From positions 1 to 64,000 of IMG/VR virus record IMGVR_UViG_3300025141_012845: a stretch of 64,000 bases of DNA; one strand, written 5' to 3'. Positions 6,053-63,054 of this stretch are shown here, in pieces. Each line of letters opens with the position of its first letter. The stretch's first letter is position 1. The notes under the pieces are model-generated. The model did not search any database and was not told where the DNA came from. It saw nothing but the letters and a program-made list of their open reading frames with translations. The stretch comes from a virus. Made by a program: the position numbers and the translations under genes.

Positions 6053-6064
6053 TTTAATCCTCCA

Positions 6065-6310: not shown

Positions 6311-6323
6311 ATTTTTCCCTCCT

Positions 6324-46675: not shown

Positions 46676-47380
46676 CTATATTTTTCCTTCGTTCCAGTCG
46701 GACTTAAAGTTTCTATACCTTGCTCTTAATTTGTTGAGACTACTAACAACTTGCTTCGTATTTAAGCCCGTTAATTCTCTGAGATAGAGATAAACTGCCT
46801 TCTTGTTAAAGATTTCAATGTCTTCCGAACTATTAAAAAGAACGTCCACTGCTTGAAGAACCTTTCTTTCATTTTGCTTAAGAGTCTCCTCATGCCAAGA
46901 CGACATCTCATCTTTTAAAAACTTCCAAAACTCTTTATATTCTCTATTGGAGACATATCCCTCATCCTCCATACACAAGTGTCTTTGATGTGACGCCTTA
47001 GAAACTGCATCAAACTGGATCTCTCTTCTCATTGCTGTGGAACACTTCTTAACCTTATGTATAAACCAGTTTTTAGTTATAACGCTGAAATATGAAAAGG
47101 CTTTCGATCCTTTGTCAGGGTCATATTTGTCCAATATTGTGGTGAGCCACATCTTACACTCTTCCATAAGAACATCTATATTTGGAAGACTAGAGAACTT
47201 GTATGTATAAACAATCTTATTCACCAATTCATTAAATGCTGGCTGTATGAGATCTATATATAGTTTTTGTTTCTCGTCTCTGTCGTCGGATCGTGCGTAC
47301 TTTACAATTGCATCTTCATGATCTTTTGTAAAATAATGTCTACTATTTTTCTTTCTTCTTCTAGTCTTCGGTTTCGTCAT
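46676..47380 (-). CDS. Late-transcription sigma factor, T4 gp55-like (234 aa)
   Basis: A phage-encoded sigma that would direct host RNA polymerase to late promoters. The central sigma region 2-like segment shows INVLMEECKM-type residues (IDVLMEECKMWLTTILDKYDP, about 68-88) followed by SKAFSYFSVITKNWFIHKVKK (about 92-112), characteristic of gp55. An HxxDAIVKYARS helix precedes it. The basic N-terminus (TKPKTRRRKKN) and C-terminal helices are also present. In T4, gp55 works with gp33 and the sliding clamp gp45; neither is recognised here. It overlaps the next upstream gene by 20 bases. Confidence 0.82.
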   Translation of the reverse strand: MTKPKTRRRKKNSRHYFTKDHEDAIVKYARSDDRDEKQKLYIDLIQPAFNELVNKIVYTYKFSSLPNIDVLMEECKMWLTTILDKYDPDKGSKAFSYFSVITKNWFIHKVKKCSTAMRREIQFDAVSKASHQRHLCMEDEGYVSNREYKEFWKFLKDEMSSWHEETLKQNERKVLQAVDVLFNSSEDIEIFNKKAVYLYLRELTGLNTKQVVSSLNKLRARYRNFKSDWNEGKI

Positions 47381-48193: not shown

Positions 48194-48565
48194 TTAATCT
48201 CCTTTTATAACTCTATAAGAATCGCTATCGTAATGCTCCGTAGAAAACTCAAACAATTCTGAATCTTCCAATGCGAGCATCTGATGTCGTAGACCCGGAT
48301 AGATATAAAAATTCTGCCCAGGTTCTAAAATAATTTCTTCTGCCAAATCTATGTCATCATAGTTTGAATACTTTACCAAAAGTTTACCAGACTGTAGATA
48401 GAACACTTCGTCCTTTATCTTATGATGATGCCAAGAGCATTTCTTGCCCTTTTCAAAGAACAAGAGTTTGCCGCAATATTCTTCCTTGTTGACAATCCAT
48501 AATTCATGCCCCCACCCTTTTTTAACAAATTTCATTTCCGGTGTCTTATTTGCTGAAGAAGTCAT
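48194..48565 (-). CDS. Cupin, sugar-phosphate isomerase/epimerase-like (123 aa)
   Basis: A single-domain cupin: WHHHKIKDEVFYLQSGKLLV (45-64) supplies H46/H48 and E53, and H94 in PGLRHQM supplies the fourth metal ligand. EPGQNFYIYPG is the usual strand between them. This fold includes type II mannose-6-phosphate isomerases and WxcM-like sugar isomerases. It follows the HAD phosphatase by a 20-base overlap and is the last gene of the heptose-like block, where a sugar-phosphate isomerase would be chemically useful. The substrate cannot be read. Confidence 0.8.
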   Translation of the reverse strand: MTSSANKTPEMKFVKKGWGHELWIVNKEEYCGKLLFFEKGKKCSWHHHKIKDEVFYLQSGKLLVKYSNYDDIDLAEEIILEPGQNFYIYPGLRHQMLALEDSELFEFSTEHYDSDSYRVIKGD

Positions 48566-48875
48566 CGGCGTTAACCCCCTTATCGTCTATAAAATAGTCT
48601 GATTCTACTTTGCCAAGATGTAGTTCATGAAACTTAACGCCCCATTCTTTTAACTGATTATATGTAAGTGTATAGAACAATGCATACGCAGCTTCTCTAT
48701 TGTTGTTGGTTCGGCCCATTCCTCTAGCAGTTAAAAATTTAATATGGTGTCCTTGTTCATATAGTTTATTGACCTCATCAATCCTATCTCGAATCGGTTC
48801 GGAGCCGGTATAATCATCACTTGACGATTCTCCAGATGTACAAATCGTACCATCTATATCAAACACATATATCAC
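48546..48875 (-). CDS. HAD-family phosphatase of sugar-biosynthesis type (109 aa)
   Basis: Motif I is D6-I-D8-G-T near the start. FLTARGMG (about 47-54) is motif II. LGKVESDYFIDDKGV (about 87-101) holds the late lysine and acidic pair. Short HAD proteins of this type occur beside nucleotidyltransferases in capsule and LPS clusters. The start is GTG at 48875, overlapping the previous stop (GTGA), with GGAG 8 bases upstream. It does not look like the zinc-containing GmhB heptose phosphatase, so a specific heptose role is only suggested by its neighbours. Confidence 0.82.
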   Translation of the reverse strand: MIYVFDIDGTICTSGESSSDDYTGSEPIRDRIDEVNKLYEQGHHIKFLTARGMGRTNNNREAAYALFYTLTYNQLKEWGVKFHELHLGKVESDYFIDDKGVNADDFFSK

Positions 48876-49264
48876 TTGTTATTCTCCAATATCTTTGTAG
48901 TTGAATACTCATCTATTCTATCAAAAAAAAGAACTTCTCCAGCATGTTCGGACCCAACAACCTTCTTGCCTCTCCAGTCGGAACCTACAATCATTATATC
49001 AGGAAAGTTATCTTTTATTAAGTTTTCTAATTGTTCTGCTGAATTAAACACTAAAACTTCGTCAACATATTTAATAGACTCTAAAATAAACTTTCTGTCT
49101 TCAGATCTATTAAACGGTCTTGATTCTCCCTTATCTTTTTTTACCTTACTATCGGAGTCGATCCCTATAACTAGTCTATCTCCCAATGATTTTGCATACT
49201 TAAATAATTCAATGTGTCCTCTATGTAAGATGTCAAAACATCCATTTGTCCAAATCGTTTTCAT
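48872..49264 (-). CDS. Heptose-1-phosphate nucleotidyltransferase, HldE C-domain-like (130 aa)
   Basis: A cytidylyltransferase-fold enzyme closely resembling the C-terminal half of HldE, which makes ADP-heptose. TNGCFDILHRGH carries the HxGH motif at 14-17. GDRLVIGIDSD (28-38), KGESRPFNRSEDR (45-57) and STTKI near the end follow the HldE pattern. In most bacteria this domain is fused to the kinase; here they are separate genes overlapping by 4 bases (ATGA), so the polypeptides should be made in step. Transfer of another NMP to another sugar phosphate cannot be excluded. Confidence 0.85.
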   Translation of the reverse strand: MKTIWTNGCFDILHRGHIELFKYAKSLGDRLVIGIDSDSKVKKDKGESRPFNRSEDRKFILESIKYVDEVLVFNSAEQLENLIKDNFPDIMIVGSDWRGKKVVGSEHAGEVLFFDRIDEYSTTKILENNK

Positions 49265-49992
49265 GTTGTACCAACTCCTCTTTTCTGAACAACAACACTA
49301 GCACACTGATTTGCGAACTCAATTGATTTTTCTATATCTCCAGTTTCAGTATATTTCACAGACAATGCTGAAACAAAGGTGTCCCCTGCTCCCGATGTGT
49401 CTTTAACCTCAACTTCTGAAACTGGGTATAGAACCTCATTGTACCGACAGCCCTTTGGACCCAAAGTTACAATTAGTTTTTTTATCATCTCCTCGCTGAG
49501 ACTGTCTTTTGTTCTTCTATATTCCTCTTCGTTTATCTTTATAAACCTTGCCTTTTCGCACCATGCGCCCAATCTTTTCTTGGTATCGAGAAACACTACA
49601 TCATGCTTACTTGTCACATACTCTATATCATCCTCAGATAAGAACCCCTTATTATAATCAGATATTACAACAGAATCGTACTTGCTAAACTTTATTAATT
49701 TAAGTTTTGAGCGCCCATACGATTCGTCTCCCTGATCAAGCCTCATAAACATGTGGTTTGACCTTAAATCGATAAATCTTGTTTTAGTTATATTCTGCCA
49801 ATTACTGTTTGTGTGTATGTTAGCATCAGCACCAAGCGCTTGAATGTTTCTTTGAACATTCATTGCCATTCCTGGATTCTCAACTGTACGAACTGGATTG
49901 AAAACAGGGACTGGTGCTTCTGGACAGAGCCTGGTGCAGCGACCATAATTAAACACGTCTTTACAACTTTCCCCTATTACAAGAATTTTCAT
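49261..49992 (-). CDS. PfkB-family sugar kinase, HldE N-domain-like (243 aa)
   Basis: A ribokinase-fold kinase matching the N-terminal half of HldE, which phosphorylates D-glycero-D-manno-heptose 7-phosphate at C1. Near the start, SPEAPVPVF-like CPEAPVPVF (23-31) and NPGMAMNVQRNIQALGA (38-54) correspond to HldE substrate-binding elements. DTSGAGDTF (198-206) gives the catalytic D204. It is about 70 residues shorter than the usual domain. The next gene is the matching nucleotidyltransferase. No GmhA-type isomerase is visible, so the substrate must come from the host or another enzyme. Confidence 0.82.
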   Translation of the reverse strand: MKILVIGESCKDVFNYGRCTRLCPEAPVPVFNPVRTVENPGMAMNVQRNIQALGADANIHTNSNWQNITKTRFIDLRSNHMFMRLDQGDESYGRSKLKLIKFSKYDSVVISDYNKGFLSEDDIEYVTSKHDVVFLDTKKRLGAWCEKARFIKINEEEYRRTKDSLSEEMIKKLIVTLGPKGCRYNEVLYPVSEVEVKDTSGAGDTFVSALSVKYTETGDIEKSIEFANQCASVVVQKRGVGTT

Positions 49993-49998
49993 TGCTGT

Positions 49999-51156
49999 TT
50001 AGCCTCTAACAATCTGGCAAATGTGCTCAATCTCACTCTCTGTTAGTTCTGGATAGTTTGGAAGGAAGAACCCGTTTCTATGGATTCTATTGCTAACTTC
50101 GTCTTCAAACTTGCCATATTCTTCGTACCAAAATGGATGTTGACCCAAATTACCTGCACTGAAGATTCTGGTTTCGACTCCGTTATCTACCAGCCTTGAT
50201 ACAATATCTTTTCGATGCTCTCCGCTTTCTGCTAGAGCCCCAAATGATATGGAAACAGGCTTGTGATCATACCAGTTCTGGTATTGGACATATCCTTCTA
50301 GATTCTTTGCATACGCAACGTGGTTCTCATATCTACGTGTTGCTGCCCAATTTGCTTTGGCTACCTGTCTGATTCCTATAAATGACTGCAGATCTGTTGC
50401 TCTTAGATTCAAGCCTGTAGTAAAGAATGTAAACGGCTTATGAAAATCATCTACTTCATATTTGTTCATAAGTCGATTATACTCGCTTTCTTCCAAATCC
50501 TTTCCCCAGCCATGGCTTCGCAACATCATGAGCATTTGATAAATTTCAAAGTCGTCCGTATTAACCATTCCCCCTTCAATGGTGGATAATTGGTGTCCAA
50601 AATAAAAAGAAAATGAAGACATATTACCAACTGTACCAACTTTTGCACCATCAGAATACTCGGCTCCCAATGCTGCACATCCATCCTCTAAGAGATAAAA
50701 GCCATACTTTTCTTGAAGCTCAAGCATTCGTTCTCTATAATGTGGCACGCCTAAAACCTGAACAAAGATTACTGCTGCAGGATTCTCCTTTTCACAAACT
50801 CTTTCTAGTTGATCTAAATCCATGCCGAATGTTTCTTTATCTGCTCCGACCATTATTGGTTGAAGTCCAAATTGCATTACTGGAGCAACAGTTGTTACCC
50901 ACCCAACCGATGGCACAACAACCTTATCATTCTTAAGTTTGCCAGCCTTTAACGCTGCGTAAACCATTAGGAGATTGGCGGAAGATCCAGAGTTACAGAA
51001 AACTGAATACTTTGTTCCGATGTAGTCTGCCCATTTTCTCTCAAACTGTTCCGTTAAGTTTCCTTTCGTCAATCTCGGATAACTTTTAAGCCAATTACAA
51101 AGGGCATCTATGTCATCTTCATTAATAGTTTCTTTCGCTAGTGGGTATTTTATCAT
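49999..51156 (-). CDS. DegT-family PLP enzyme with His188 in place of lysine: ColD/RfbH-type 3-dehydratase (385 aa)
   Basis: The fold is that of DegT/DnrJ/EryC1 sugar aminotransferases, but the Schiff-base lysine position reads H188 in SFSFYFGHQLSTIEGG (181-196). That His replacement, even the same residue number, is the hallmark of GDP-4-keto-6-deoxymannose 3-dehydratase (ColD), and is also seen in RfbH/E1. These enzymes remove the C3 hydroxyl instead of transferring an amino group. D158 in LLEDGCAALG would contact the PLP ring nitrogen, and GSSAN (57-61) binds its phosphate. The N-terminus IKYPLAKETI is normal for the family. It follows an oxygenase-like gene and precedes the heptose kinase by 6 bases. 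Confidence 0.85.
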   Translation of the reverse strand: MIKYPLAKETINEDDIDALCNWLKSYPRLTKGNLTEQFERKWADYIGTKYSVFCNSGSSANLLMVYAALKAGKLKNDKVVVPSVGWVTTVAPVMQFGLQPIMVGADKETFGMDLDQLERVCEKENPAAVIFVQVLGVPHYRERMLELQEKYGFYLLEDGCAALGAEYSDGAKVGTVGNMSSFSFYFGHQLSTIEGGMVNTDDFEIYQMLMMLRSHGWGKDLEESEYNRLMNKYEVDDFHKPFTFFTTGLNLRATDLQSFIGIRQVAKANWAATRRYENHVAYAKNLEGYVQYQNWYDHKPVSISFGALAESGEHRKDIVSRLVDNGVETRIFSAGNLGQHPFWYEEYGKFEDEVSNRIHRNGFFLPNYPELTESEIEHICQIVRG

Positions 51157-51179
51157 TTTATTTTTCCATTGGTTTAGTT

Positions 51180-52130
51180 TTATAGATTCTCAACAATCTT
51201 AATCGGTGCTCTTTCATAAAATTTCATGTTTTCTAGTTTTGGATTTGAATATCTAATCATTGATTCCTCTAGTGTTTCCTCTATAAGAAGAAACAATGAC
51301 TTTCCCAATTCGCGATACACTTCCTTGTCCAAATATTCATAACGATAGTTTTCTAAATGTTTCTTTTCTCTCTTTGAGGCATCATGGAAAAGTGATTTTT
51401 CATTATCCACTATGATTCCAAAGTCAATAGAAACTCTCACTCCTCCATCGTTTAAAACAGTTCTGTGTACACAAGCTTGATCGAACACACTAAGATACCC
51501 CATTCTAGCATATCCTATGAGTTTTTTATCCTTAAATTTTTTTAATCCGTCATCATAGTTCTTTAATGGCAAAAAGAAGTCATCGGTCAAACCTTGTGGC
51601 TCAAAAAATTCCACCGTTGTTGTGGGGTCTCCTGTCAGTGGAACTGCGATTATAGCGTCTCCAACATGAGAGGCCCATGCATCAGAATGTAGTTTAGTGG
51701 TAGCAAGAGGGCGATTATGATCTACGCTGTTCTTTGCTCCGGAAACCACCCTTATTGTGCAAGGTTGCAACGCAAGACAACTATCTAAAATTCCTGATTG
51801 TTGGAGTGCTTCAACAACGCTTTTTTGTAAAGCATTGTATTCTACAATATTGTCCCTTTTCGGGTGAAAAGCCCCATTTTTTGTCCTATTAGGCAAATTC
51901 AATATTTCTTCTTTATACCTGTCTAAAAAGTCATCGCAAAGGACAAATTCTTCCTCATAAAAACAACTCAAAGTTTTAAAAACATAATCAATTACACGAT
52001 CAACCATGTTTTTATATAAACTGGTGGGCAACTTCGTATCAAAGTATATTCCATAGTCCCTATCAGTCTGAGACACAGATCTCATTTCACTATACAGGTC
52101 TGATCTTCCTTTTACGACATCATCTGCCAT
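51180..52130 (-). CDS. 2OG-Fe(II) dioxygenase-like protein (316 aa)
   Basis: The spacing of H148-x-D150 (LHSDAW), H222 (CVHRT) and R232-x-S (VRVSIDFG) matches the metal triad and 2-oxoglutarate arginine of the Fe(II)/2OG oxygenase superfamily. A likely role is hydroxylation of a sugar or lipid intermediate in the cassette, but the substrate is unknown. The N-terminal 100 residues are helical. It overlaps the RmlC-like gene by 11 bases (stop inside its first codons). No closer family was recognised. Confidence 0.65.
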   Translation of the reverse strand: MADDVVKGRSDLYSEMRSVSQTDRDYGIYFDTKLPTSLYKNMVDRVIDYVFKTLSCFYEEEFVLCDDFLDRYKEEILNLPNRTKNGAFHPKRDNIVEYNALQKSVVEALQQSGILDSCLALQPCTIRVVSGAKNSVDHNRPLATTKLHSDAWASHVGDAIIAVPLTGDPTTTVEFFEPQGLTDDFFLPLKNYDDGLKKFKDKKLIGYARMGYLSVFDQACVHRTVLNDGGVRVSIDFGIIVDNEKSLFHDASKREKKHLENYRYEYLDKEVYRELGKSLFLLIEETLEESMIRYSNPKLENMKFYERAPIKIVENL

Positions 52131-52659
52131 TTTCGAACACCGTCTCTCTCATTGTCTTACCATTTTCATCTCTTTCTGATAAAGTGGGGTTCATAGTCGG
52201 CCAATGAATGTTTAAATCCGGATCGCTCCACCTTACAGTGATTTGATCATCTGGCCCGCTATACTTTTTAGACCATTTGTAGAAAAATACGCATTTTTCG
52301 GTTAAACAAACGTGGCCGTTCAAACACCCTGGTGGAACTAGAATCATTGTTGGTTTCTTTTCTGTAAGATGAAAAGTCTTGACTGACTTGAATGTTTGTG
52401 AGTCTTTCCTTACATCAACAACTGCTAAAAATATTTCTCCATGCATACAACAAATCAATTTATAAGTATCGTAATCACCATGAAGACCTCTTAACACATT
52501 TTTTCTAGAAACAGTAACTTTATCCTCAACAAACTTCGGAAATATCTCACAATCCTCATAGATCGACCAAATTTCACCTCTTTTATCTAGGAAAGGGTCT
52601 AGTTGTATTTCTATCAAACCATCGATGTCATGACTTTTAAGGTCTTTTACATATTTCAT
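52120..52659 (-). CDS. RmlC-like sugar epimerase (179 aa)
   Basis: ATG at 52659 overlaps the previous stop (ATGA); a TTG 15 bases earlier is less likely. R57-G-L-H60 (NVLRGLHGDY) is the catalytic-histidine motif of dTDP-4-dehydrorhamnose 3,5-epimerase. KLICCMHGEIFLAVVDVR and the later PPGCLNGH and FYKWSKKY segments fit the cupin-like RmlC fold. Length is typical (about 180). It could epimerise a 4-keto sugar made by other enzymes of the cassette. Which positions are inverted cannot be told. Confidence 0.82.
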   Translation of the reverse strand: MKYVKDLKSHDIDGLIEIQLDPFLDKRGEIWSIYEDCEIFPKFVEDKVTVSRKNVLRGLHGDYDTYKLICCMHGEIFLAVVDVRKDSQTFKSVKTFHLTEKKPTMILVPPGCLNGHVCLTEKCVFFYKWSKKYSGPDDQITVRWSDPDLNIHWPTMNPTLSERDENGKTMRETVFENGR

Positions 52660-53612
52660 GGAATAAATTTGCACCGCATTTCGTCGTAATCTAACTCTTC
52701 CTTTGATAAGAAGAGGTATTTGTTGACTACACTTGTCAATCTATCTGGATCTTTAATGTACCCATCTTCATCATATGCCTCTGGATTGTGCTGCATAATG
52801 TTGTTACATTCCTCGTAGCCTAATCCGGCTTCATAAGCCTCCTTGTCATTTACAAACTCCGTCGCATCCCTATCATATAGAAGATTGTTCCACATGTTTG
52901 AGTGCTTTTCAGAGACGAAAGAGGCACACGCTGATGCACCGTCAAGGCTATGCAAATGTCTAACCTGTAGATCTTTCATTATCACCCATTTTTGTTTAAC
53001 GGAAGCAGCCACATAATTAAAGGTCGATTCACTACAAAATGCCGCAAATATATCAGGATGTATTTTGTTATATTTTTTATAGATCTCGTTACTAAAAAGG
53101 TGTACATGTTGATTTATTGATTTTCCAATTGGTACTACATAATCCTCATCTTTTACTTGAATTTCTGGAGTTTGATAAACAAACTTATCAGGATCAAGAA
53201 CGTGTAATGCTTCGTCCGTGTCTGTTTGAACTGCCACAATGCCATATGGACCTGACTTGAAACACTCGTATACAGAGCTTATCACATTAGTCTGATCCTC
53301 AAAACTGCACCCTGAATCAACATATAGATACCCTTCAAACTCTCCAAAATGCTTAACGCTTTCCTGTATTGCTTTGTTAAACGTGATGTTTACGGTATGT
53401 GGATCTGTGTGATAGCAGTATGAAATCTTATCTTTAAAAGTAGAATATACCTCTTTAAAACACTCTGGGCTGTTCAAACAGGAGGAGAATACGACTCTGT
53501 AGCCTTCAAAGTCTTGATTTAACAAACTGTTTATGGATTCTATGTACCAATCCGTATTGTCTCTCTTTATCCCACATGTATTATATACTACTAACATTTT
53601 TCTGTTTTCCAA
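52656..53612 (-). CDS. GT-A-like glycosyltransferase (318 aa)
   Basis: N-terminal MLVVYNTCGIKRDN and a Rossmann-like alternation lead to LYVDSGCSF near residue 96, in the place of a DxD metal motif. The remainder is mixed alpha/beta with conserved-looking His and Trp residues and no membrane anchor. The start is TTG at 53612, preceded by AGGAG at a 6-base spacing; the ATG 15 bases downstream would be too far from it. The assignment as a glycosyltransferase is tentative, from fold pattern and location among sugar genes. Confidence 0.5.
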   Translation of the reverse strand: MENRKMLVVYNTCGIKRDNTDWYIESINSLLNQDFEGYRVVFSSCLNSPECFKEVYSTFKDKISYCYHTDPHTVNITFNKAIQESVKHFGEFEGYLYVDSGCSFEDQTNVISSVYECFKSGPYGIVAVQTDTDEALHVLDPDKFVYQTPEIQVKDEDYVVPIGKSINQHVHLFSNEIYKKYNKIHPDIFAAFCSESTFNYVAASVKQKWVIMKDLQVRHLHSLDGASACASFVSEKHSNMWNNLLYDRDATEFVNDKEAYEAGLGYEECNNIMQHNPEAYDEDGYIKDPDRLTSVVNKYLFLSKEELDYDEMRCKFIP

Positions 53613-53613
53613 T

Positions 53614-54126
53614 TTATTCTCCTATGTTTAGAGATAAGATTATCTCTTTTATTATTTTTGCTTGGATTAACTCACCTTTCAATCTGAAAGATTTTATTAT
53701 ACCATTATAGCTTACTTTGTCGATAATTTTAATAGCCGCATCATTAATTGTCATTAATTCCATTTCTCCGTAAGCCTCTACAGAATCTTCTTTAAATTTT
53801 TGAAGGATGCCCTTGCCTATTAGAGTTGGCAGTCTCACAACTACTCCCTTCTCGCAATGGCTAAGAAGGTATGCCTCAGCGATTTGTTTACAGTAATTGT
53901 ACCAGTTTTCTTTTTCAGAATATGTTGAAACAAAGATTATTTTTTTCTCTGCGTGTTCATCAACAAACTCAGCAAACTTCTCACACTCTATCTGTTGTGT
54001 TCTCTGATCCTTATCGTCAATATTCCAAGTGTGGTATATATAAGTTTCCTCCAAAGGGTCTACACTTTCTAATAAATCTCTAAGTGCGTTTCCTAACTGG
54101 CCTCGCCCGTTTATCAGTTTAAGCAC
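53614..54126 (-). CDS. Short NAD(P)-dependent epimerase/reductase (SDR), 170 aa
   Basis: The glycine motif is G7-R-G-Q-L-G12, and the catalytic set S67 (IFVSTYS), Y76-x-x-x-K80 (YNYCK) is visible. VVVRLPTLIG (about 95-104) is the usual strand before the substrate site. At 170 residues it is shorter than extended SDRs (about 300), so it may have a reduced substrate domain. GTG at 54126 overlaps the previous stop (TAGTG). A sugar 4-keto reductase role would suit the cassette but is not shown. Confidence 0.65.
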   Translation of the reverse strand: MLKLINGRGQLGNALRDLLESVDPLEETYIYHTWNIDDKDQRTQQIECEKFAEFVDEHAEKKIIFVSTYSEKENWYNYCKQIAEAYLLSHCEKGVVVRLPTLIGKGILQKFKEDSVEAYGEMELMTINDAAIKIIDKVSYNGIIKSFRLKGELIQAKIIKEIILSLNIGE

Positions 54127-55346
54127 TAGACGAACTCCGGATGCTTTAATAACCTCTTTATATTTTGTTGTTGACCCAGAAGTTCTTTTTTAAAATCATC
54201 CACATTGTCCTTTGAACTTTCATACTGATTGTATAACTCCCAGCACATTTTATTGCTTTCGTGTGGTTTGCACAACTCTGTACATTTTGAAAACTTCTCA
54301 ACATTATCAATAACATTCATAACCGACCTTCTCTTCTCGACATTATTCCAAATATCTTTAAAAGAACTCTCCTTGAGGTCTCCGTAACTATATTGTTTAT
54401 AACCTCTATGATTGGTACAGACATAGACATGCCCGTCGGCACCAATACACGGTTGTATTTGAGACCCTAAACACTTCTTATAACTCCTGCCATAAAGGGC
54501 TGGATCATTTTCCAAATCCTGTAGTTTATACCCGTTAATCTGATACTTATCTCCAAGAATATTCTTTGCCTCAGCAAGCAGTGGTTCAACTTTATCGTTC
54601 CAGAACTTAATTTTGCGCTGAACGCCTGATTCTCGTTCTCTATTTACAATTTCTGGCTTGTATTGACAATAATCTACATCAAACTTAGAAAAGAACTTTG
54701 CAAAGTCAACTATCTCATGATATGTGTCAGGAGTTATAACAAAACCAACTCCAATGTTTATTTTCTTATCTTTTTGGTTATTTACTTCTACTAGTTTGGT
54801 CAAGTTTAAGGCCATTTTATCCCATGTTTGCCCCTTCTTAGCCCGTCTAACGTTGTTGTACGTTTCCGGCGTTCCTGCGTCCACTGAGAACCTTACCCAC
54901 GTCATATTATCAACTAATGTATCGAACAAGTCCCATTTGTCAAGAAGAGTCCCGTTTGTGAACATTCCCATTTTAATTGAGTTCTCTCCCAAATACTGAA
55001 TTGCCTCTTTTAAATGTGGATTCAATGTTGGTTCTCCGCCGCCTGTCCAATTTACGGCACGAACATCCATATCAACAAAATCCCTGCAAACACTCATAAG
55101 CATGTCCTTATTCATGATTGAACGGTCAAAGGTCTCAAGGTTCTTTGATTCTGGTAAGTGAATATAAGACGATATGCAGAAATAGCACCCGTGATTACAT
55201 GCATTACTTGGATCAATCTCAACCAAGACAGGAGGAGATGTCCCCTTTTCAAAAAATTCAATCACCCTATCTGCATTAGCAACAACTTTTGCTTGAGGGT
55301 TGAAAATGTTGGTTCCTTTTGAAAGTATTTTATCGAGACTCTTCAT
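54126..55346 (-). CDS. Radical SAM protein with SPASM-like domain (406 aa)
   Basis: C50-x3-C54-x2-C57 (CNHGCYFC) is the [4Fe-4S] motif, and GGGEP (102-106) binds SAM. C-terminal cysteines in KCLGSQIQPC, VYVC and KCTELC look like a SPASM auxiliary cluster. Such enzymes make radical changes on sugars, peptides or cofactors; in polysaccharide clusters they can be epimerases or deoxygenases. The start is ATG at 55346, 17 bases inside the exostosin-like gene. The product has no signal peptide and acts in the cytoplasm. The substrate is unknown. Confidence 0.85.
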   Translation of the reverse strand: MKSLDKILSKGTNIFNPQAKVVANADRVIEFFEKGTSPPVLVEIDPSNACNHGCYFCISSYIHLPESKNLETFDRSIMNKDMLMSVCRDFVDMDVRAVNWTGGGEPTLNPHLKEAIQYLGENSIKMGMFTNGTLLDKWDLFDTLVDNMTWVRFSVDAGTPETYNNVRRAKKGQTWDKMALNLTKLVEVNNQKDKKINIGVGFVITPDTYHEIVDFAKFFSKFDVDYCQYKPEIVNRERESGVQRKIKFWNDKVEPLLAEAKNILGDKYQINGYKLQDLENDPALYGRSYKKCLGSQIQPCIGADGHVYVCTNHRGYKQYSYGDLKESSFKDIWNNVEKRRSVMNVIDNVEKFSKCTELCKPHESNKMCWELYNQYESSKDNVDDFKKELLGQQQNIKRLLKHPEFV

Positions 55347-56262
55347 TTTTCTTCCCTAACCACTCTAAAAAGAATTTAGTGGGATCTTCAAAATATACAC
55401 GAATAACATCATCAAAGTATTTTTTTGCAGCGCTCGCCCTATTCTCTAATTCTTCCAAAGGTAAGTTATAGACTTCCTTAAGCTTCTCTGCGACCTTGTC
55501 AGGTGTCATTTCAATATCACAAATCCTAAAAACAAAACTAGTATCGTAATAATCTTCTCCTACAAGATAATAGTCCAAGTCAGAGATTAGAATAGGGACT
55601 CGATTATAATAACAACTTTCCAAAAGTCTTACACTATCAATGCCTGATCCTCTCGGGCACAGCGATAAGCCATTTGCAAGCATTGTATCAATATAGTCTT
55701 CTTGAACTTTAGATCCTATTTCGGAAGGCCCAGCCCATGTTCTATTTACGTGCATTTCTTTTTCTAATTCCGGAGATGTATGGAGTGCATACACCATGAT
55801 TGCTCTGCATCCATGATTCATATATCCTCTAAACCCGAATTTTTTATTATCAGGAAACTCAAACTCCTCACTTCTGTTATTGACAATATCTAACAATAAG
55901 TGAGAAAAAGTTGGTCTAGCGAATAGTTTTTGTATGTTCGAATAAAGTTTTACTGGCCCCATTGTTGTAATAATAGAATTATGCAGCCATCCTGGAATAG
56001 GCATCCCTCCTTCTCCTTCTACATCACATATGTGCTTGTCTTCATTTCCTTCAAAGTACTTAAAAGTCTTAGAAGTATAGCGATTAAAGTGGTCATTAGG
56101 TATTTGACCCATGTAGAAGTAATCCGCTTCCTCTGGAGAGACTAACTCACAGTAGTCTTCGATACCTTTCTTGCTTAAAGGCACTGTATTGAAATATATC
56201 TCTGTGTCATCATGAACATGTTCACGAGCGTTCGGATAAACATATAGTTTTATTTTATTCAT
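55330..56262 (-). CDS. Exostosin-like glycosyltransferase (GT47 type), 310 aa
   Basis: The C-terminal half has the GT47/exostosin signature LCPRGSGIDSVRLLESCYYNRVPILISD (about 202-229), where a conserved Arg and Glu bind the nucleotide sugar. N-terminal residues include IKLYVYPN. It is soluble, without a transmembrane anchor, so it would act in the cytoplasm on lipid-linked or protein acceptors. Exostosins are best known from heparan synthesis; bacterial and phage versions have varied specificities. It overlaps the radical SAM gene. Confidence 0.78.
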   Translation of the reverse strand: MNKIKLYVYPNAREHVHDDTEIYFNTVPLSKKGIEDYCELVSPEEADYFYMGQIPNDHFNRYTSKTFKYFEGNEDKHICDVEGEGGMPIPGWLHNSIITTMGPVKLYSNIQKLFARPTFSHLLLDIVNNRSEEFEFPDNKKFGFRGYMNHGCRAIMVYALHTSPELEKEMHVNRTWAGPSEIGSKVQEDYIDTMLANGLSLCPRGSGIDSVRLLESCYYNRVPILISDLDYYLVGEDYYDTSFVFRICDIEMTPDKVAEKLKEVYNLPLEELENRASAAKKYFDDVIRVYFEDPTKFFLEWLGKKNEESR

Positions 56263-56275
56263 GTGTGTTCCTCTT

Positions 56276-57118
56276 TTAAAAATTTATTTTTGGTTCTTTG
56301 TCCGGAAAAGACATTTTGTTTAGATTAACATCTTTTACTCTTTTCTTTAAGTCCTCGTAAGATATATCGTATTCTAAATCAAGATTGTTGGCGCATGCTG
56401 ATAAAAGAGCGCAGTAAACTTTATAATCGTAATCTTCATTGCTTAATTCACCCTCAAAAGGTGGGAAGGCTGTTATGCCGCAGTTTGTAAGTTCTTTGAT
56501 TTTTTCACACCCTTTTAGCCAAAAATAAAACGCCATATAGTGATCGATATATCTTGCCTTAAAGACAGAAGGGTATATAACACCACCTAATTTATCTTCT
56601 ATAAAATTGCGAGTTATAACTGGGAATCTCGCGCAAGCAACCTTAGTTATATCACTAAATCTAGAATAAAAATTAGTATAATTCTTATCTGGTTGAAAGT
56701 TTAGCGGAATATTAAACAATTTAGTTGCTAAAGATTCCACCCTTTGCCCGTCCTCCGTATATTGCTCTGGAATCATCAAGATAAAATCTCTTTCCTGTAC
56801 AATCATACGCAGAATGACATCATACTTAAATTGTTCCCCGTAAAGCATCCCGTCGGTGGCCGGATGAACAATTCTCCCCTTTGACATTTTATACATCTTG
56901 TTATAGCCAGCAACACTACCTACAGTCTCTTCTTCTTTAATCCACGTCACGCCTTCAATTTCAGGATCAAGTGGCGAATATACTAAAATCTCATAGGTAA
57001 ACTTTTTAGGGCCGCTATCCCATTTAATCTCCTGAATGGACTTTACTACTCTGTGGCAGAACTTTTCGTTTGGCCTTCTGTCATTTAAGGTAGGTAGTAA
57101 GAATGATACATCAACCAT
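56276..57118 (-). CDS. Putative glycosyltransferase-like protein (280 aa)
   Basis: N-terminal VSFLLPTLNDRRPN resembles the opening strand of GT-A enzymes, and AGYNKMYKMSKGRIVHPATDGM (about 70-91) could be the region that normally has the DxD-like turn. Other parts are helical with many aromatic residues. No membrane segment. It overlaps the ThDP enzyme gene by 8 bases. I would call it a likely GT2-related protein with modest confidence. Confidence 0.5.
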   Translation of the reverse strand: MVDVSFLLPTLNDRRPNEKFCHRVVKSIQEIKWDSGPKKFTYEILVYSPLDPEIEGVTWIKEEETVGSVAGYNKMYKMSKGRIVHPATDGMLYGEQFKYDVILRMIVQERDFILMIPEQYTEDGQRVESLATKLFNIPLNFQPDKNYTNFYSRFSDITKVACARFPVITRNFIEDKLGGVIYPSVFKARYIDHYMAFYFWLKGCEKIKELTNCGITAFPPFEGELSNEDYDYKVYCALLSACANNLDLEYDISYEDLKKRVKDVNLNKMSFPDKEPKINF

Positions 57119-58949
57119 CGTCTTTGTTAAAAATGCTAGGCATTGGAGGATTTTTTGAGATCTCTAATGCCTCTACCTCCATATTAGAATAGAATTCCTC
57201 TCTTGGCAAGTAGGGATACATATCTTCAATAGGAGTGCTCCATCCAACAATTTTAGGCTCATAAACGTGATATTCGTGACAGTTAACATCACAAACTATT
57301 GGGCCATCACTATCTAAAAACTCTCTGACCTGTTTTCTAACAACATCATAGTCTTCACCGCTATTAATAGACATTGTCTTAACCCCATACGCATCTACAA
57401 TCTTTAAGAAGTCCGGTGGGTTATAGCCCTTTGGCCCGCACGCTTCACTTCTACCTTCAAAGTTAACCTCTTGAAATGCTTTCGTAATTCCATAAATATG
57501 GTTATTTAAAACAATGGTCTTAAGATTCACATTATAGTTCAATAATGTCTGCAACTCTTGAATATTCATATTAAATCCGCCATCACCGATGACGCAAACA
57601 ACGTTCTGAGTTTCATCCGCTGCAAAACAAGAACCAAGTCCACCAGCAAAAGAGAATCCCATTGGAGAGTTTCCATTATTGGTAATATATCTTTGGCCTG
57701 TTTTCGTCTCAAATGCATGATTTAAAACAACAATATTGCCTCCACAGTCACCAATTAAGATATCGTTATCCTTCATCTCCTCTGAAAGTATTCTAGCGAA
57801 AGCATAAGGATGCACATATCTTTGAGTGTCATACATCTCTTTAATGACTGGATCATATTTTTCTTTCCATCCATTCACTCTATTGACCCATCCGGAAAAG
57901 TCTGGTAGACTTTGATTTCTTTCTCTGGCTCTATCCAAAAGCATGTTTATAAAAACTTTTGCATCAGAATAAATGCACTCATCAAACGGAAGTTGTTGAA
58001 GCTTCTTCTGGAGTGCTGGTTTGTCAACATCGACCATATACTTTTTAGCGCCTCTTGCAAAAGTCTCCGGTGTTCCTCCGGTGATTCTACCAGAAATTCT
58101 ACTACCGATTGCTAAAAGAAGGTCAGAGTTTTGAATTCCAAAATTACGGCCTGCTCCACCATATGTTCCAATTCTGCCACCATAGTATTCAAAGTCAGAA
58201 CAAATAATATCTAATGCATTCCAAGTTGGAAAACACGGAACTTTTAATTCTCTAGCCAGTTCCAGTATCTCTTTCTCTGCTCCCGCAAGTCGAACTCCTT
58301 GTCCGATCATCAAGCATGGACGCTCGCTACCAGCCAAATCATCAAGATATTTGTCAATTTGCTCGTTAATCTTTTCAGTATCAAAAGAGGTTTTTAACCC
58401 ACAATCGTATCCTAACAACCCTTCTGGTTCAATCTCTGCTTTAGCAACATCAATTGGAATATCAAGAAGTACAGGTCCGGGTCTACCGGTTGTCGCAACA
58501 TGAATAGCCTTTTCTAGTTCATAACGAATACTATCTGGATCATCAACAAGTTTAGCATATTTTGTTATTGGCTCCACAATACTGACAATATCAGTTTCCT
58601 GAAATCCAATCTGTCTAATAGACTTATCTGGCCTCATATATTGTGTTTTGATTTGTCCGGTAATAAAGACACAAGGAACTGAGTCATAAAAACAGTTTCC
58701 AATCGGCGTAACAAAGTTCATCCCGCCTGGTCCACTAGTTGCTATCGCAACGCCAAACTTCCCGGAAATCTTAGCATATCCTTCTGCGGCAAAACCTCCG
58801 GCTTGTTCATGCATAACCGCTACATACTTTGTTTTATCTGTGCGAGTAAACGCATCTATCAAATGTCCATTTGCTGCGCCATATACAACAAAAACATCTT
58901 TAATCCCTTGATCTCCGATATAATCTATTACGTAGTCTGCTAAATTCAT
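57111..58949 (-). CDS. Acetolactate-synthase-like ThDP enzyme (612 aa)
   Basis: A three-domain ThDP enzyme: E48 in MHEQAGGFAAEGYA is the cofactor-activating glutamate; SGPGG (72-76) and PVLLDIPIDV end the first domain. The ThDP-magnesium motif begins at G455-D-G-G and continues to LNNHIYG (about 481-488). Length fits acetolactate synthase catalytic subunits. In sugar clusters, homologues such as YerE attach two-carbon branches from pyruvate to keto-deoxysugars. Here it starts 2 bases after a PanB-like gene and shares an operon with a ColD-like dehydratase. No small regulatory subunit is seen. Pyruvate use is likely; the acceptor is unknown. Confidence 0.82.
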   Translation of the reverse strand: MNLADYVIDYIGDQGIKDVFVVYGAANGHLIDAFTRTDKTKYVAVMHEQAGGFAAEGYAKISGKFGVAIATSGPGGMNFVTPIGNCFYDSVPCVFITGQIKTQYMRPDKSIRQIGFQETDIVSIVEPITKYAKLVDDPDSIRYELEKAIHVATTGRPGPVLLDIPIDVAKAEIEPEGLLGYDCGLKTSFDTEKINEQIDKYLDDLAGSERPCLMIGQGVRLAGAEKEILELARELKVPCFPTWNALDIICSDFEYYGGRIGTYGGAGRNFGIQNSDLLLAIGSRISGRITGGTPETFARGAKKYMVDVDKPALQKKLQQLPFDECIYSDAKVFINMLLDRARERNQSLPDFSGWVNRVNGWKEKYDPVIKEMYDTQRYVHPYAFARILSEEMKDNDILIGDCGGNIVVLNHAFETKTGQRYITNNGNSPMGFSFAGGLGSCFAADETQNVVCVIGDGGFNMNIQELQTLLNYNVNLKTIVLNNHIYGITKAFQEVNFEGRSEACGPKGYNPPDFLKIVDAYGVKTMSINSGEDYDVVRKQVREFLDSDGPIVCDVNCHEYHVYEPKIVGWSTPIEDMYPYLPREEFYSNMEVEALEISKNPPMPSIFNKDDG

Positions 58950-58951
58950 TA

Positions 58952-59872
58952 CTAATCCTTACGAGTTACAGTGTTTGGTGTTAGACTATGATTCGTTGGA
59001 AAGCCCTGATCTGTTTCATACTTCCACTTTGAATCGCCTAACAACTTTTCAAGTTCTTCATCTTTGATTTCATAGAAATTTTCCTGTGCTGGAAAAACTC
59101 CAGTTCGGACTTCTTCCGCATATTGTTGCAGGGCCGACTGCATTGCTTTACCTGCTTCACAATATCGCTTTACGAACTTAGATTTAAATTCCCAAAACAG
59201 CCCCATAAGATCGTGGAAGATGACCAATTGTCCATCTACCTTATCTCCTGCTCCAATTCCATAAACAGGGATAGAAAGCTCGTTAGCAATAATACCAGCA
59301 GGTTCTCTTGGCATTGCTTCCAAAAGAAGAAATGAACACCCGGCCTCTTGCAGTTTCAAAGCCTGTTCTAAAATAACTTCTGTTTGCTTTGCTGTCTTGC
59401 CCTGTACTCTGTACCCTCCTAGTTTAGCACGAGTATGTGGTGTCAGGCCTAAGTGGCTCATAACTAAGATCCCGGCATCTGCTATTGATTTAATTCTGTC
59501 AACCATCGCGCCCTCAACCTTAACGCAATCCATTCCTGACCTTACAAATCTACCGGCATTTATAACTGCTTCTTCGTTTGATACTTGATATGACATGTAC
59601 GGCATGTCACCAATAAGAAAAGCGTTGTTTGTTCCTCTAGCGACTGCTTCGCAGTGAGAAATCATATTATCCATTGTGACTGGTATTGTTGTCTTGTGTC
59701 CTAATGTAGTCATGCCTAGCGAATCTCCAACCAAGATACAGTCGACACCTGCGCCATCTGAAATCCTTGATTGAGGATAGTCATAGGCGGTTGTCAACAC
59801 CGTTTTTCTTCCCTCTTCCTTTTGTCTTCTTAATTTTAATACTGTTACCTTATTCTTATCGTTTGCGGCCAT
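58952..59872 (-). CDS. panB: Ketopantoate hydroxymethyltransferase-like enzyme, PanB family (306 aa)
   Basis: Signatures of PanB are clear: LTTAYDYPQSRI (26-37), LVGDSLGMTTLGH (47-59) with D50, IGDMPYMSY (87-95) with D89, VKVEGA with E120, LLLEAMPRE (182-190) with E185, and VDGQLVIFHD (212-221). The normal reaction adds a hydroxymethyl group from methylene-tetrahydrofolate to 2-oxoisovalerate for coenzyme A synthesis. The metal and base residues appear intact. It is about 40 residues longer at the C-terminus than usual. Its place next to a ThDP enzyme in a sugar cassette suggests another 2-oxo acid or keto-sugar acceptor is possible. Confidence 0.88.
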   Translation of the reverse strand: MAANDKNKVTVLKLRRQKEEGRKTVLTTAYDYPQSRISDGAGVDCILVGDSLGMTTLGHKTTIPVTMDNMISHCEAVARGTNNAFLIGDMPYMSYQVSNEEAVINAGRFVRSGMDCVKVEGAMVDRIKSIADAGILVMSHLGLTPHTRAKLGGYRVQGKTAKQTEVILEQALKLQEAGCSFLLLEAMPREPAGIIANELSIPVYGIGAGDKVDGQLVIFHDLMGLFWEFKSKFVKRYCEAGKAMQSALQQYAEEVRTGVFPAQENFYEIKDEELEKLLGDSKWKYETDQGFPTNHSLTPNTVTRKD

Positions 59873-59890
59873 TTTTTTCTCCTTTTAATT

Positions 59891-61411
59891 TCAATCACCT
59901 AATGTTTTTCTTTTTAACTTAATCTTAGTTGTGTTTTCCATATTTTCTCTTGCTTTTGAGCCAAATTTCGTCTCCAAAAGGGATAAATAATCTCTATTGG
60001 TATGATACTTCATCCACGCTTTATCTCGAAATTCAAGAATCTGAGATGCTTTAAGATTTTCATTTGATAAATTAAGAGTTTCATATGAGTGCTGGCTATA
60101 TCCCTCATATCTGTTAGGTAAAGCGACACCGCTCTTCTTTGCATGTAGATGAAGGGGGCTGCCTGGATATGCCATTGCGCAATACATATTTGTCATCTCT
60201 GACAAATTGTCTAAAGCAAAATTTAACGTGTCATTCATAGATTCCATTGTGTCCATTGGTAGTCCAAAAATATAATTCGCACCGATATTGATACCGGCAG
60301 ATCTCATTGTTTGAAGTATATCATAGATCTTTACTTCTTTAAATCCATCTTTATGAATTTCTTTTCTTAAAGTTTGATTTGGGTTTTCAATTCCCAATCC
60401 AAGCCAGTTTACTCCAGCCTTTTTAAGCGCGTCTAAATACTTTGGCTTACAGGTGTCGATTCGAGAATATGCCCATATATTAAAATCATATCCTCTTTCC
60501 GCTATCATATCACATATCTTCATAAAGTGTCGAGGATTAAGAACAAACAATTCATCAGCAATCTTAATATTTTTTATATTGTTCTCGGCAAAATAATCAA
60601 ACTGCTTTATGATAAAGTTGGGATCCCAATATCTGAAGATGTTACTGTCTTCGCTTGAAATATCCTCGCCAGAATCTGTTCTATTGATTATATTAATCAT
60701 GCAGAATGAACAAGTAAAAGGGCACCCTAAACTTGTATAAAGTGCTGCAAAGGGAGCGTTGTCTGTATTGTTACTCCATGAATGCCAACCGGAGGTTCTA
60801 TATTTTGAAAAGTCCGGTAATAAGTTCCATGCCATTCCTGGTAAGTCTTCTTGGAGTCTTGATCTGGGAACTATGCCTTCAGGCTCATTTAAGACTGCGT
60901 TTCCATCTTCGTCTTTAAATCCCAGCCCTTTCACCTTTTTAAGAAGGCTCGAATCATCCAAGTTCTCTACACGCAACAAGTTACTAATCGTGTATACTCC
61001 CTCGTTTTGACAAACCATATCAATAGAAGGCTCTGTTAAGACTTCTTTTGGAACCGCCGCTACATGTGCGCCTACAAAGAGAATCTTAATTGTAGGATCT
61101 CGAAGTTTTACCATCTCCGCAGTCTCAACTGCTCCGCACATATTCTGACTTGATGCGCTTGGCTGTTGGCCATATACAACAAAGCAGACTATGCGGGCAT
61201 TGTATTCTTCAATAACCTTAGCAGATTCTTCTGTTGTTAACTGTTCTGCTTCGCAATCTAAGATTCTTGGTTCGAATCCTCTAGTGACACAATGATTGGC
61301 AAGCATCGCTGCCCAAATTGGAGGCTCAATAGCAGAATGATTTTTGCTTAACCCTTGATAGATCTTTTTTGATCCATTGGGATGTACAAAAAGCACATCT
61401 ATTTGTCTCAT
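59891..61411 (-). CDS. B12-binding-domain radical SAM enzyme (506 aa)
   Basis: The N-terminal 140 residues look like a cobalamin-binding Rossmann domain (IDVLFVHPNG start, LFVGAHVAAVPKEVL at about 111-125) without the DxHxxG motif, as is common in this class. The radical SAM core has C230-x3-C234-x2-C237 (CPFTCSFC). Class B radical SAM enzymes methylate or rearrange unactivated carbons. AGGAGGT-like GGAGG lies about 7 bases before ATG 61411. It may act on a sugar or lipid of the cassette; the substrate is not deducible. Confidence 0.85.
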   Translation of the reverse strand: MRQIDVLFVHPNGSKKIYQGLSKNHSAIEPPIWAAMLANHCVTRGFEPRILDCEAEQLTTEESAKVIEEYNARIVCFVVYGQQPSASSQNMCGAVETAEMVKLRDPTIKILFVGAHVAAVPKEVLTEPSIDMVCQNEGVYTISNLLRVENLDDSSLLKKVKGLGFKDEDGNAVLNEPEGIVPRSRLQEDLPGMAWNLLPDFSKYRTSGWHSWSNNTDNAPFAALYTSLGCPFTCSFCMINIINRTDSGEDISSEDSNIFRYWDPNFIIKQFDYFAENNIKNIKIADELFVLNPRHFMKICDMIAERGYDFNIWAYSRIDTCKPKYLDALKKAGVNWLGLGIENPNQTLRKEIHKDGFKEVKIYDILQTMRSAGINIGANYIFGLPMDTMESMNDTLNFALDNLSEMTNMYCAMAYPGSPLHLHAKKSGVALPNRYEGYSQHSYETLNLSNENLKASQILEFRDKAWMKYHTNRDYLSLLETKFGSKARENMENTTKIKLKRKTLGD

Positions 61412-61429
61412 TATAAACCTCCAATAAAA

Positions 61430-62353
61430 TCAGTAGTTTGCATACCACGGCTCGTCAAGCATTTCATACACACTTACAAGCTGTTGTATTCCCTGATCTA
61501 AATCATATTGACATTCAAAGCCTTTATTGTAAAACTTCTCACTACTGACAACATAATCTCTAACATCTGGATCTTTCGTAAACTCAGCGCATAAGAGTTC
61601 TAGCGGTGTGTGTTCTGAGATCTTCCTTGCTAGGTCGTATTTGTTCATGTTTAAGGCGTCGTTTCCAACGTTATATGTCTCATTCTTACAATCATCCCAA
61701 TTGTCCAATGCAAATCTATACGCTCTGCAGACATCTTGAATATGCACGTAATTTCTCATAAATTCCTTTTCATATAAAACAAGGACGCGGTCTTTGACTG
61801 CCTTTAAAACAAAATTGTTCACAAGCAAATCAGTCCTCATTCTTGAGGAAGGTCCAAACACTGTTGCAAGTCTAAATGTAACATGATTTTCAATATTTTT
61901 AAATACTTTTTCTGCTTCAACTTTAGTTTCTCCATAAAGAGATACTGGATTTAAAGGAGACTCCTCTGTGCAGACTTCTCCCTTTGAAGTGCCATAGCCA
62001 GAGTTTGTGCAAGGATATATAACAAGTTGATCTTGTGATTTGTTCTCTGCGATAACCCTATTTGCTTTATAATTGATATTCCATGCTGCTTCAGGATCTC
62101 TCTTACACAAAGGAAACCCCACAAGCGCAGCCAATGGGATGATAGCATCAGATTTATTGACAAGTCTTAAAAGTTTGGGAGTTTCTCTAACGTCCCCTTT
62201 TACAAAATTAAAATTTGGATGTCCCGCATATCTCAATAAAGATAAATTATCATACATCAAATTATCATAAACTGTTACTTTGTTATCCTTAACAAGATGA
62301 TCGATAAGTTCACTGCCAATATAGCCTGCGCCACCTGTAATTAATATATTCAT
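61430..62353 (-). CDS. NAD-dependent sugar epimerase/dehydratase (extended SDR, 307 aa)
   Basis: G7-G-A-G-Y-I-G-S14 binds NAD, and Y140-x-x-x-K144 (YGETK) is the catalytic pair. TNSGYG (116-121) supplies the serine. FRLATVFGPSSRMR and NYVHIQDVCRAY follow the extended SDR pattern of nucleotide-sugar epimerases and 4,6-dehydratases. It may provide the 4-keto sugar needed by the ColD-like or RmlC-like enzymes, but 4-epimerisation is equally possible. It is followed by the B12 radical SAM gene. Confidence 0.85.
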   Translation of the reverse strand: MNILITGGAGYIGSELIDHLVKDNKVTVYDNLMYDNLSLLRYAGHPNFNFVKGDVRETPKLLRLVNKSDAIIPLAALVGFPLCKRDPEAAWNINYKANRVIAENKSQDQLVIYPCTNSGYGTSKGEVCTEESPLNPVSLYGETKVEAEKVFKNIENHVTFRLATVFGPSSRMRTDLLVNNFVLKAVKDRVLVLYEKEFMRNYVHIQDVCRAYRFALDNWDDCKNETYNVGNDALNMNKYDLARKISEHTPLELLCAEFTKDPDVRDYVVSSEKFYNKGFECQYDLDQGIQQLVSVYEMLDEPWYANY

Positions 62354-62354
62354 T

Positions 62355-62654
62355 CTACCACTCCAATTTTCCAGTTAAAACATCTTTAAGCATCACCCAG
62401 TCGCACGCTTTTGCCCACAATGGCCTTTTCCATGCTGCTGGCTTGTTCTTTTCAAAATACAGATGACCTGTCCATGCAAACGGATAAACCACAAAGGGCA
62501 CTAATGGCAAAAGAAGCCAAGTTTGACTTAATAATGCATACAACAGCACTGTAACTGTTGCCAATTGCCCAACTACATGCAGTCTTCTGCATATCTTGTT
62601 TTGATGTAAAGTCAAATAATGCTCATAATATTGTTTAAACGTAATGTTATTCAT
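62355..62654 (-). CDS. DUF962/Mpo1-like membrane protein (99 aa)
   Basis: ATG at 62654 overlaps the previous stop by 8 bases and yields MNNITFKQYYEHYLTLHQN. Conserved-looking H12, H17, H26 and H64, two to three hydrophobic stretches (about 28-60) and GHLYFEKNKPAAWKRPLW (63-80) match the DUF962/Mpo1 family. The yeast member is an iron-dependent dioxygenase of 2-hydroxy fatty acids. A lipid- or membrane-modifying role in phage infection can be proposed, but nothing else in the window names the substrate. Confidence 0.75.
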   Translation of the reverse strand: MNNITFKQYYEHYLTLHQNKICRRLHVVGQLATVTVLLYALLSQTWLLLPLVPFVVYPFAWTGHLYFEKNKPAAWKRPLWAKACDWVMLKDVLTGKLEW

Positions 62655-63054
62655 CCCAGCTAATCTCCCAATCTTTGAATTCTGCTGCCAAGCAATCAAT
62701 TTTATAATCTTTTCGTCCTCCAGCAACTTCTTGAATCTTATTCTTTGCAGTGTTGCGAATACCGTTCAATCCGTGTGTTAACTCAAGATCATTACCTTCT
62801 GCAATTCCTTTCCTATAATTGGACTCATTGTGCCATATGTGAAGGTTCATTTGAGATAACACAACAATTGCTCTAATCACTTGTGCATCTATTTTAGCAG
62901 AATTTTCTTTTAATATTAAATTAATATCGTGAACAATGTCAGAAATCTCTTGTACATACTCAGATTTGTGCTCTGATATGAAAACTTCTTTCAATTGTGC
63001 TATCGATAATCTGTCTACAAGTTCGGATAAGGTTGGTAAATATTTTCTTTTCAT
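62647..63054 (-). CDS. Conserved-looking protein (135 aa), unknown function
   Basis: Starts MKRKYLPTLSELVDRLSIAQLKEVF and contains LTHGLNGIRNTAKNKIQE (about 92-109) and CLAAEFKDWEISW at the end. It is soluble and mostly helical. It overlaps the glycosyltransferase stop by one base and the DUF962 gene by 8. The strong conservation pattern by eye (short invariant-looking motifs) suggests a real family often next to sugar genes, but I cannot name its activity. Confidence 0.6.
   Translation of the reverse strand: MKRKYLPTLSELVDRLSIAQLKEVFISEHKSEYVQEISDIVHDINLILKENSAKIDAQVIRAIVVLSQMNLHIWHNESNYRKGIAEGNDLELTHGLNGIRNTAKNKIQEVAGGRKDYKIDCLAAEFKDWEISWDE

Follow-up and report, generated by a model that had tools for sequence, protein, structure and literature searches.

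The window, by which we mean the whole stretch of 64,000 nucleotides that was analysed, comprises positions 1-64000 of the 75,718-base IMG/VR virus record IMGVR_UViG_3300025141_012845, which belongs to a marine phage and is probably a myovirus fragment with baseplate wedge proteins that match PHROGs. On its minus strand four genes, all intact open reading frames, form a compact cassette next to an island of sugar and glycan genes in the same orientation:

48194..48565, minus strand, cupin of 123 aa with an ATG start
48546..48875, minus strand, HAD phosphatase of 109 aa with a GTG start
48872..49264, minus strand, nucleotidyltransferase (NT) of 130 aa with an ATG start
49261..49992, minus strand, kinase of 243 aa with an ATG start
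49999..62353, minus strand, sugar/glycan island, context outside the four-gene cassette

Kinase and NT overlap by the four bases ATGA, NT and HAD by the four bases GTGA, and HAD and cupin by 20 bases, which reproduces the gene order and all overlaps given by a first-pass annotation that had read the locus as a split HldE heptose-activation module. The heptose-activation reading is sustained, since the nearest relatives of kinase and NT by sequence, and of the kinase also by fold, are HldE-type domains, and since relatives of the cassette contain an HldD-type 6-epimerase; closest relatives outside the HldE type, which the annotation had named as the finding that would speak against it, are not what our comparisons return. 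HldE in the strict sense, with both domains in one chain, is not encoded here, as the kinase and the NT of the window are two open reading frames, and no kinase-NT fusion was found among 91 viral loci.

The kinase matches the PfkB family (7e-21) and, as its best NCBIfam model, rfaE_dom_I (8e-36), where its score of 123.7 bits falls below the curated cut-off of 345 bits (TIGR02198). It falls 72 aa short of the 315 positions of the model, and the earlier statement that it is about 70 residues short is hence correct with respect to the model, but within the core alignment the shortening amounts to only about 50 residues. The gaps relative to cellular HldE kinases lie mainly behind residue 58 (27 residues) and behind residue 161 (15 residues). 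The viral kinase nonetheless keeps, at 80% or more, 41 of the 61 columns that are highly conserved in 30 cellular HldE kinases, and the residues kept include D12, R21, PEAPVP, K70, R72, R84, D86, SDYxKG and the GAGD catalytic loop. Its AF2 model (pLDDT 93) has Burkholderia HldA (4e84/4e8y) as top PDB match both by Foldseek (6.9e-19) and by VIA (Z 26.1 over 238 residues at 2.8 A and 29% identity), the next VIA match being a pseudouridine kinase with a Z of 23.6 and 17% identity. All of this points to a PfkB-type kinase of the HldA/HldE lineage and a putative D-glycero-D-manno-heptose-7-phosphate 1-kinase. Viral kinases of this type measure 241-291 aa with a median of 247, whereas all 77 cellular relatives have at least 293 aa, and within the sample the short kinase is a virus-only clade. 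A degenerate or truncated hldE can be ruled out, since the short reading frame is intact and its short form recurs throughout the viral relatives. A recent capture from a bacterial genome is likewise unsupported, the sole near matches in the genome collection (L016-L018) being phage-like contigs; other full-length matches reach at most 31% identity, and the few matches above that value cover only part of the protein and are ribokinase-like.

The NT matches CTP_transf_like (4e-20) and rfaE_dom_II (3e-35), and its 121 bits on the latter exceed the 91 bits obtained with TagD, both scores lying under the respective cut-offs. The cut-off of rfaE_dom_II (TIGR02199) is 181.5 bits, and viral NTs of a GGDY subtype come closer to it with 146-169 bits. 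The family is ranked best, ahead of TagD, for all 11 viral NTs tested. The motifs of the window NT, HRGH, GSDW and FDRIDEYSTT, are mixed between the HldE and TagD types, and most viral NTs have, as in TagD, GxDW and an arginine before the STT motif, for which reason the nucleotide could be CTP. Two NT subtypes are indeed found beside the same kinase, one with GxDW and mostly the arginine before STT (45 loci) and one that is GGDY-like (14 loci), and they may reflect the use of CTP versus ATP. We take the NT to be a candidate heptose-1-phosphate nucleotidyltransferase, a stand-alone counterpart of HldE domain II that would use ATP or CTP.

The HAD protein matches EcbF-BcbF at 8e-8 (TIGR01689, 32 bits against a subfamily cut-off of 162), and its profile finds 9iqw (E 2.5e-22) and 1xpj (7e-13), the nearest solved HADs, in the PDB. 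Invariant are DxDxT, T49 of a TAR motif, K89 and D98, which is the same minimal motif set as in the EcbF/BcbF capsule biosynthesis phosphatases, although the phage proteins differ from these in their low scores and in that their genes overlap, or are joined into one frame with, that of a heptose-type NT; in L009, L015, L106 and L138 NT and HAD form one chain. PHROGs labels the family 'phosphoheptose isomerase', a label that is contradicted by the presence of HAD motifs and the absence of a SIS domain, and the cyanophage genes so named are, by their motifs, HAD phosphatases. The window protein would accordingly be a minimal EcbF/BcbF-like phosphatase taking the GmhB step. The virus contig L150 contains at 4950-7133 a second heptose set made up of an HddA-like GHMP kinase, a GmhA-like SIS protein and a HAD-NT fusion, and the vicinity of this fusion to HddA-like and GmhA-like genes supports a link between the HAD and heptose. 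Other fusions of about 460 aa, in which HAD_2 is combined with NTP_transferase (L119 6636-8060 and L155 8756-10132), adjoin kinases that lack the usual NT and may represent an alternative activation pair.

The cupin is labelled 'cysteine dioxygenase' in PHROGs. Its family match is Cupin_2 (1.6e-7), and its best NCBIfam match, a WbuC-like model, reaches an E of only 0.013. The 41 viral members have 25 invariant positions, among them H46, H48, K51, E53, H94 and E106, and the HxHxxKxE motif is found in every one, such that the metal ligands H, H, E and H and the catalytic lysine expected of a ketol-isomerase are all present. Profile matches were obtained to D-lyxose isomerase (2y0o), L-ribose isomerase (5avp) and a mannose-6-phosphate isomerase, and N26, Y30, C31, K33, H46, H48, K51, E53, H94, E106 and S108 coincide with the B. 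subtilis D-lyxose isomerase 2y0o in the alignment. With a predicted model of pLDDT 95 the top Foldseek matches are D-lyxose isomerases (best 7nzp, E 3.3e-9), and VIA gives tied Z scores of 14.7-15.9 for CapF, phosphomannose isomerase and D-lyxose isomerase. On Pfam Lyx_isomer the window protein scores 19.2 bits, under the cut-off of 20.8, and 20 of the 41 viral cupins match this family at an E of at most 0.01. D-lyxose isomerase yields aldoses of the lyxo/manno configuration, which is the one made by GmhA. In the Thermofilum D-lyxose isomerase H75, H77, E88 and H143 bind Mn and K86 has been proposed to stabilise the enediol (PMC8378251), and the residues of the viral HxHxxKxE motif correspond to these metal ligands and to K86. 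The viral cupins thus equal the Thermofilum and B. subtilis D-lyxose isomerases and L-ribose isomerase in metal ligands, the motif lysine, a late Glu and N..YC.K, but differ from them in having only about 120 aa, one barrel and short loops. Judged by sequence, the 'cysteine dioxygenase' of cyanophages is a cupin resembling D-lyxose/L-ribose ketol-isomerases, and we infer that it acts as a ketol-isomerase taking the GmhA step.

Neither the cassette nor the short kinase is peculiar to this phage. By tblastn the kinase is found in 39 phage records, mainly of Synechococcus and Prochlorococcus phages, and a relative is encoded by 584 of 600 examined IMG/VR pattern matches. All four genes occur in cultured cyanophages such as P-SSM2, S-SM2 and P-TIM68 as well as in many viral contigs. 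The cyanophage NT, kinase, HAD, cupin and nucleotide-sugar epimerase constitute the clusters T4-GC 304-308, and in the phages concerned (P-SSM2, S-SM2 and S-SSM7, and also P-TIM68, S-CAM1 and S-CAM3) the same four genes are found, often with the small overlaps of the window and in an order similar to it. Many cyanophage clusters, unlike the window, add an HldD-like epimerase and a carbamoyltransferase. The window phage has no close kinship with the cassette-bearing cyanophages, no near relatives of window positions 32000-55000 were found at the DNA level in the phage record collection, and its SbcCD-like protein (6324-9479) and the protein at 46676-47380 have distant relatives only (Microcystis phage Mel-JY01, Flavobacterium phage immuto).

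Linkage was assessed in 91 viral kinase loci, namely the window, 87 IMG/VR loci and three contigs of phage-like character that the genome collection contains. Within 6 kb of the kinase an NT is present in 59 loci, a HAD in 55, a cupin in 49 and all three in 47, the commonest order being kinase-NT-HAD-cupin (31 loci); no partner is nearby in another 31, in some of them on account of a contig end. Phage genes or the same glycan genes are present on these three contigs, which are assigned to a Prochlorococcus single cell, a Thaumarchaeota MAG and a Planctomycetaceae MAG, and those of the two MAGs (L017, JACAFS010000024.1, and L018, NHBP01000003.1), which carry the phage cassette, look like misbinned virus DNA. 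The cassette is, in conclusion, a widespread viral module, neither unique to the window phage nor a broken hldE. A PDH-E1-like TPP enzyme of about 400 aa lies near the short kinase in 20 loci (including L119, L121, L132, L133, L137, L149 and L150), usually directly upstream and often with a Zn alcohol dehydrogenase ahead of it, a pair that is also present in S-SM2 and P-TIM68.

The nature of the sugar is indicated by an additional gene, since many relatives have an HldD-like gene between kinase and NT; the protein of L150 obtains 224.7 bits on heptose_epim (ADP-glyceromanno-heptose 6-epimerase). An HMM built from four viral HldD-like proteins detects such an epimerase in 21 of 94 loci (139-507 bits, the next best being 55). 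NT and HAD accompany it in every one of these loci and the cupin in 20, the exception (L125) being truncated by the end of its contig. Of the nine complete cyanophage genomes seven encode the HldD-like enzyme, Sf-CH8 and S-T4 being without it, and the HMM search found none in the window record, which is a fragment. Because relatives carry this epimerase, the module is best taken to act on heptose, and common descent extends this call to the window. GmhA, which the annotation had proposed to look for elsewhere in the genome, was not found with TIGR00441 in the window record, in the nine complete cyanophage genomes or in 16 of 17 further HldD-positive records, the remaining one giving a match, nor with the SIS_2 model in 12 records; TIGR00441 was used besides SIS_2 because the latter misses the GmhA-like protein of L150. 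GmhB (TIGR00213) was likewise not found in the ten records tested, the window record and the nine cyanophages. With these two enzymes not found, apart from the one GmhA match, and exactly two more enzymes in the cassette, the cupin and the HAD most likely take the GmhA and GmhB steps as isomerase and bisphosphatase, respectively, a point beyond the earlier annotation.

We therefore regard it as fairly probable that the four genes constitute a self-contained nucleotide-heptose pathway in which GmhA and GmhB are replaced by non-orthologues and the product enters a phage-directed glycan. Starting from a ketose phosphate, for which sedoheptulose 7-phosphate of the pentose-phosphate/Calvin pool is the likeliest candidate, the cupin would make D-glycero-D-manno-heptose 7-phosphate by isomerisation. 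C1 would then be phosphorylated by the short HldA-type kinase and the 7-phosphate be removed by the HAD phosphatase, and the HldE-II-type NT would form NDP-D-glycero-beta-D-manno-heptose. In many relatives the HldD-like enzyme would then epimerise C6, and since the window record lacks it the product of the window would stay D,D. Glycosyltransferases of the adjoining island would finally transfer the heptose to a glycan located on the virion or on the surface of the cell. The reactions, the substrate, the nucleotide and the place of the glycan are all predictions from sequence comparison and structural models. The bacterial ADP-heptose pathway (GmhA, HldE or HldA+HldC, GmhB and HldD) has in common with the cassette a kinase of the HldA lineage, an NT of the HldE-II lineage and a HAD phosphatase, and with viral relatives only the HldD-like epimerase. 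The viral set differs in that its kinase is some 50-70 aa shorter, separate from the NT and of a virus-specific clade, that its isomerase is a cupin and not a SIS protein, that its phosphatase is an EcbF-like minimal HAD and not GmhB, and that none of its NCBIfam scores attains the curated cut-off.

By fold the viral cupin resembles the cupins of several nucleotide-sugar pathways equally well, and the WbuC-like model is, its E value notwithstanding, the best NCBIfam match, so it could be argued that only kinase, HAD and NT activate heptose while the cupin acts downstream on the nucleotide sugar in the manner of RmlC, FdtA or WbuC and host GmhA supplies the heptose 7-phosphate. The two MAGs holding such contigs do have gmhA-like genes, the contigs themselves being apparently misbinned, but the Prochlorococcus single-cell genome with a phage contig, whose completeness is not known, gave no gmhA match. 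A downstream cupin is moreover unlikely in view of the conserved residue set, identical to that of the B. subtilis isomerase in the alignment, and of the cupin's near-constant presence in HldD-positive cassettes. The notion that the module activates a non-heptose sugar or polyol, for instance a different ketose or aldose phosphate supplied by the island itself and possibly as a CDP derivative, stems from the TagD score and the GSDW/R motifs of the NT, from the fact that in many relatives the kinase has PDH-E1-like TPP enzymes and Zn alcohol dehydrogenases as neighbours, and from the 31 partnerless loci, which, some of them having a different HAD-nucleotidyltransferase fusion, suggest that the kinase may serve other sugars as well. 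It is however made quite improbable by the facts that the HldD-like epimerases best fit a sugar of at least seven carbons, that rfaE_dom_II outscores TagD for every NT tested, and that the kinase retains HldA-conserved residues.

The first-pass annotation had also considered that the genes might alter the host core that other phages use. In this reading, for which their HldE-like character speaks, they would supply the host's own heptose synthesis for inner-core LPS or change the core so that other phages are shut out. Surface exclusion through glycan change is known in phages, and it has been suggested for pelagimyophages (PMC7029224). A function in the host core is nevertheless highly improbable, since a GT9 heptosyltransferase, which was looked for as the annotation had proposed, was not found in the window record, and since the cassette is carried by cyanophages even though cyanobacterial LPS is reported to be without heptose and KDO (PMC4515613), so that a use for the inner core is not to be expected in these hosts. 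The cassette furthermore adjoins tail-fibre genes in P-SSM2, S-CAM1 and S-CAM3. Returning to the self-contained pathway, its heptose thus probably feeds a phage-made glycan and not inner-core LPS, and the window record has many non-GT9 glycosyltransferases and sugar enzymes up to position 67202. More tentatively, it is quite possible that ocean phages generally possess their own complete heptose activation, built around a virus-only short kinase and with a cupin isomerase and a minimal HAD bisphosphatase that share no family with bacterial GmhA or GmhB, in hosts whose LPS reportedly lacks heptose. Earlier papers have noted heptose genes of cyanophages and the rfaE of pelagimyophages (PMC7378029, PMC7029224); in the open-access papers searched we found neither the virus-only kinase clade, the two annotation corrections and the swapped-enzyme pathway nor any work joining a cupin, sedoheptulose 7-phosphate and heptose. 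If true, two standing cyanophage misannotations ('phosphoheptose isomerase' and 'cysteine dioxygenase') are corrected, a widely conserved viral gene block is assigned a function, and viruses have a heptose route independent of host GmhA, GmhB and HldE, which raises the question whether a heptose glycan is made by marine phages themselves and where it is destined.

In P-SSM2, S-CAM1, S-CAM3 and Sf-FS3 the cassette has a carbamoyltransferase and a weakly GT9-like protein (13-23 bits) as neighbours. The GT9-like proteins, conserved and annotated as 'hypothetical' upstream of the carbamoyltransferase in four cyanophages (L006 12690-13802, L179 781-1920, L180 795-1934 and L184 622-1776), share a GxGRVLCSIPALE start and an ADxxLGxDSxGQH motif and gave no sequence match in the PDB, and the likeness to GT9, the heptosyltransferase family, is no more than suggestive.

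The island of the window encodes a DegT aminotransferase, an RmlC-like protein, glycosyltransferases, radical SAM proteins, an NAD epimerase, an acetolactate-synthase-like TPP enzyme and a PanB-like protein, and its extension past the window to record position 67202 adds three glycosyltransferases. The TPP enzyme, PanB, which scores above the NCBIfam cut-off, and a B12 radical SAM protein adjoin each other (57111-58949, 58952-59872 and 59891-61411). The same trio is found at 73, 63 and 48% identity in L016, the phage-like contig of Prochlorococcus single cell AG-409-P03, where it is accompanied by RmlC, a glycosyltransferase and the short kinase, and it possibly belongs to a branched-chain sugar pathway. 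An Mpo1-like protein (2-hydroxy fatty acid dioxygenase family) is encoded amid the glycan genes at 62355-62726 and is found near the short kinase in other viral contigs as well (10 loci). The tail/baseplate region, finally, contains two very large open reading frames, at 22328-31756 (3142 aa) and 35646-43931 (2761 aa).
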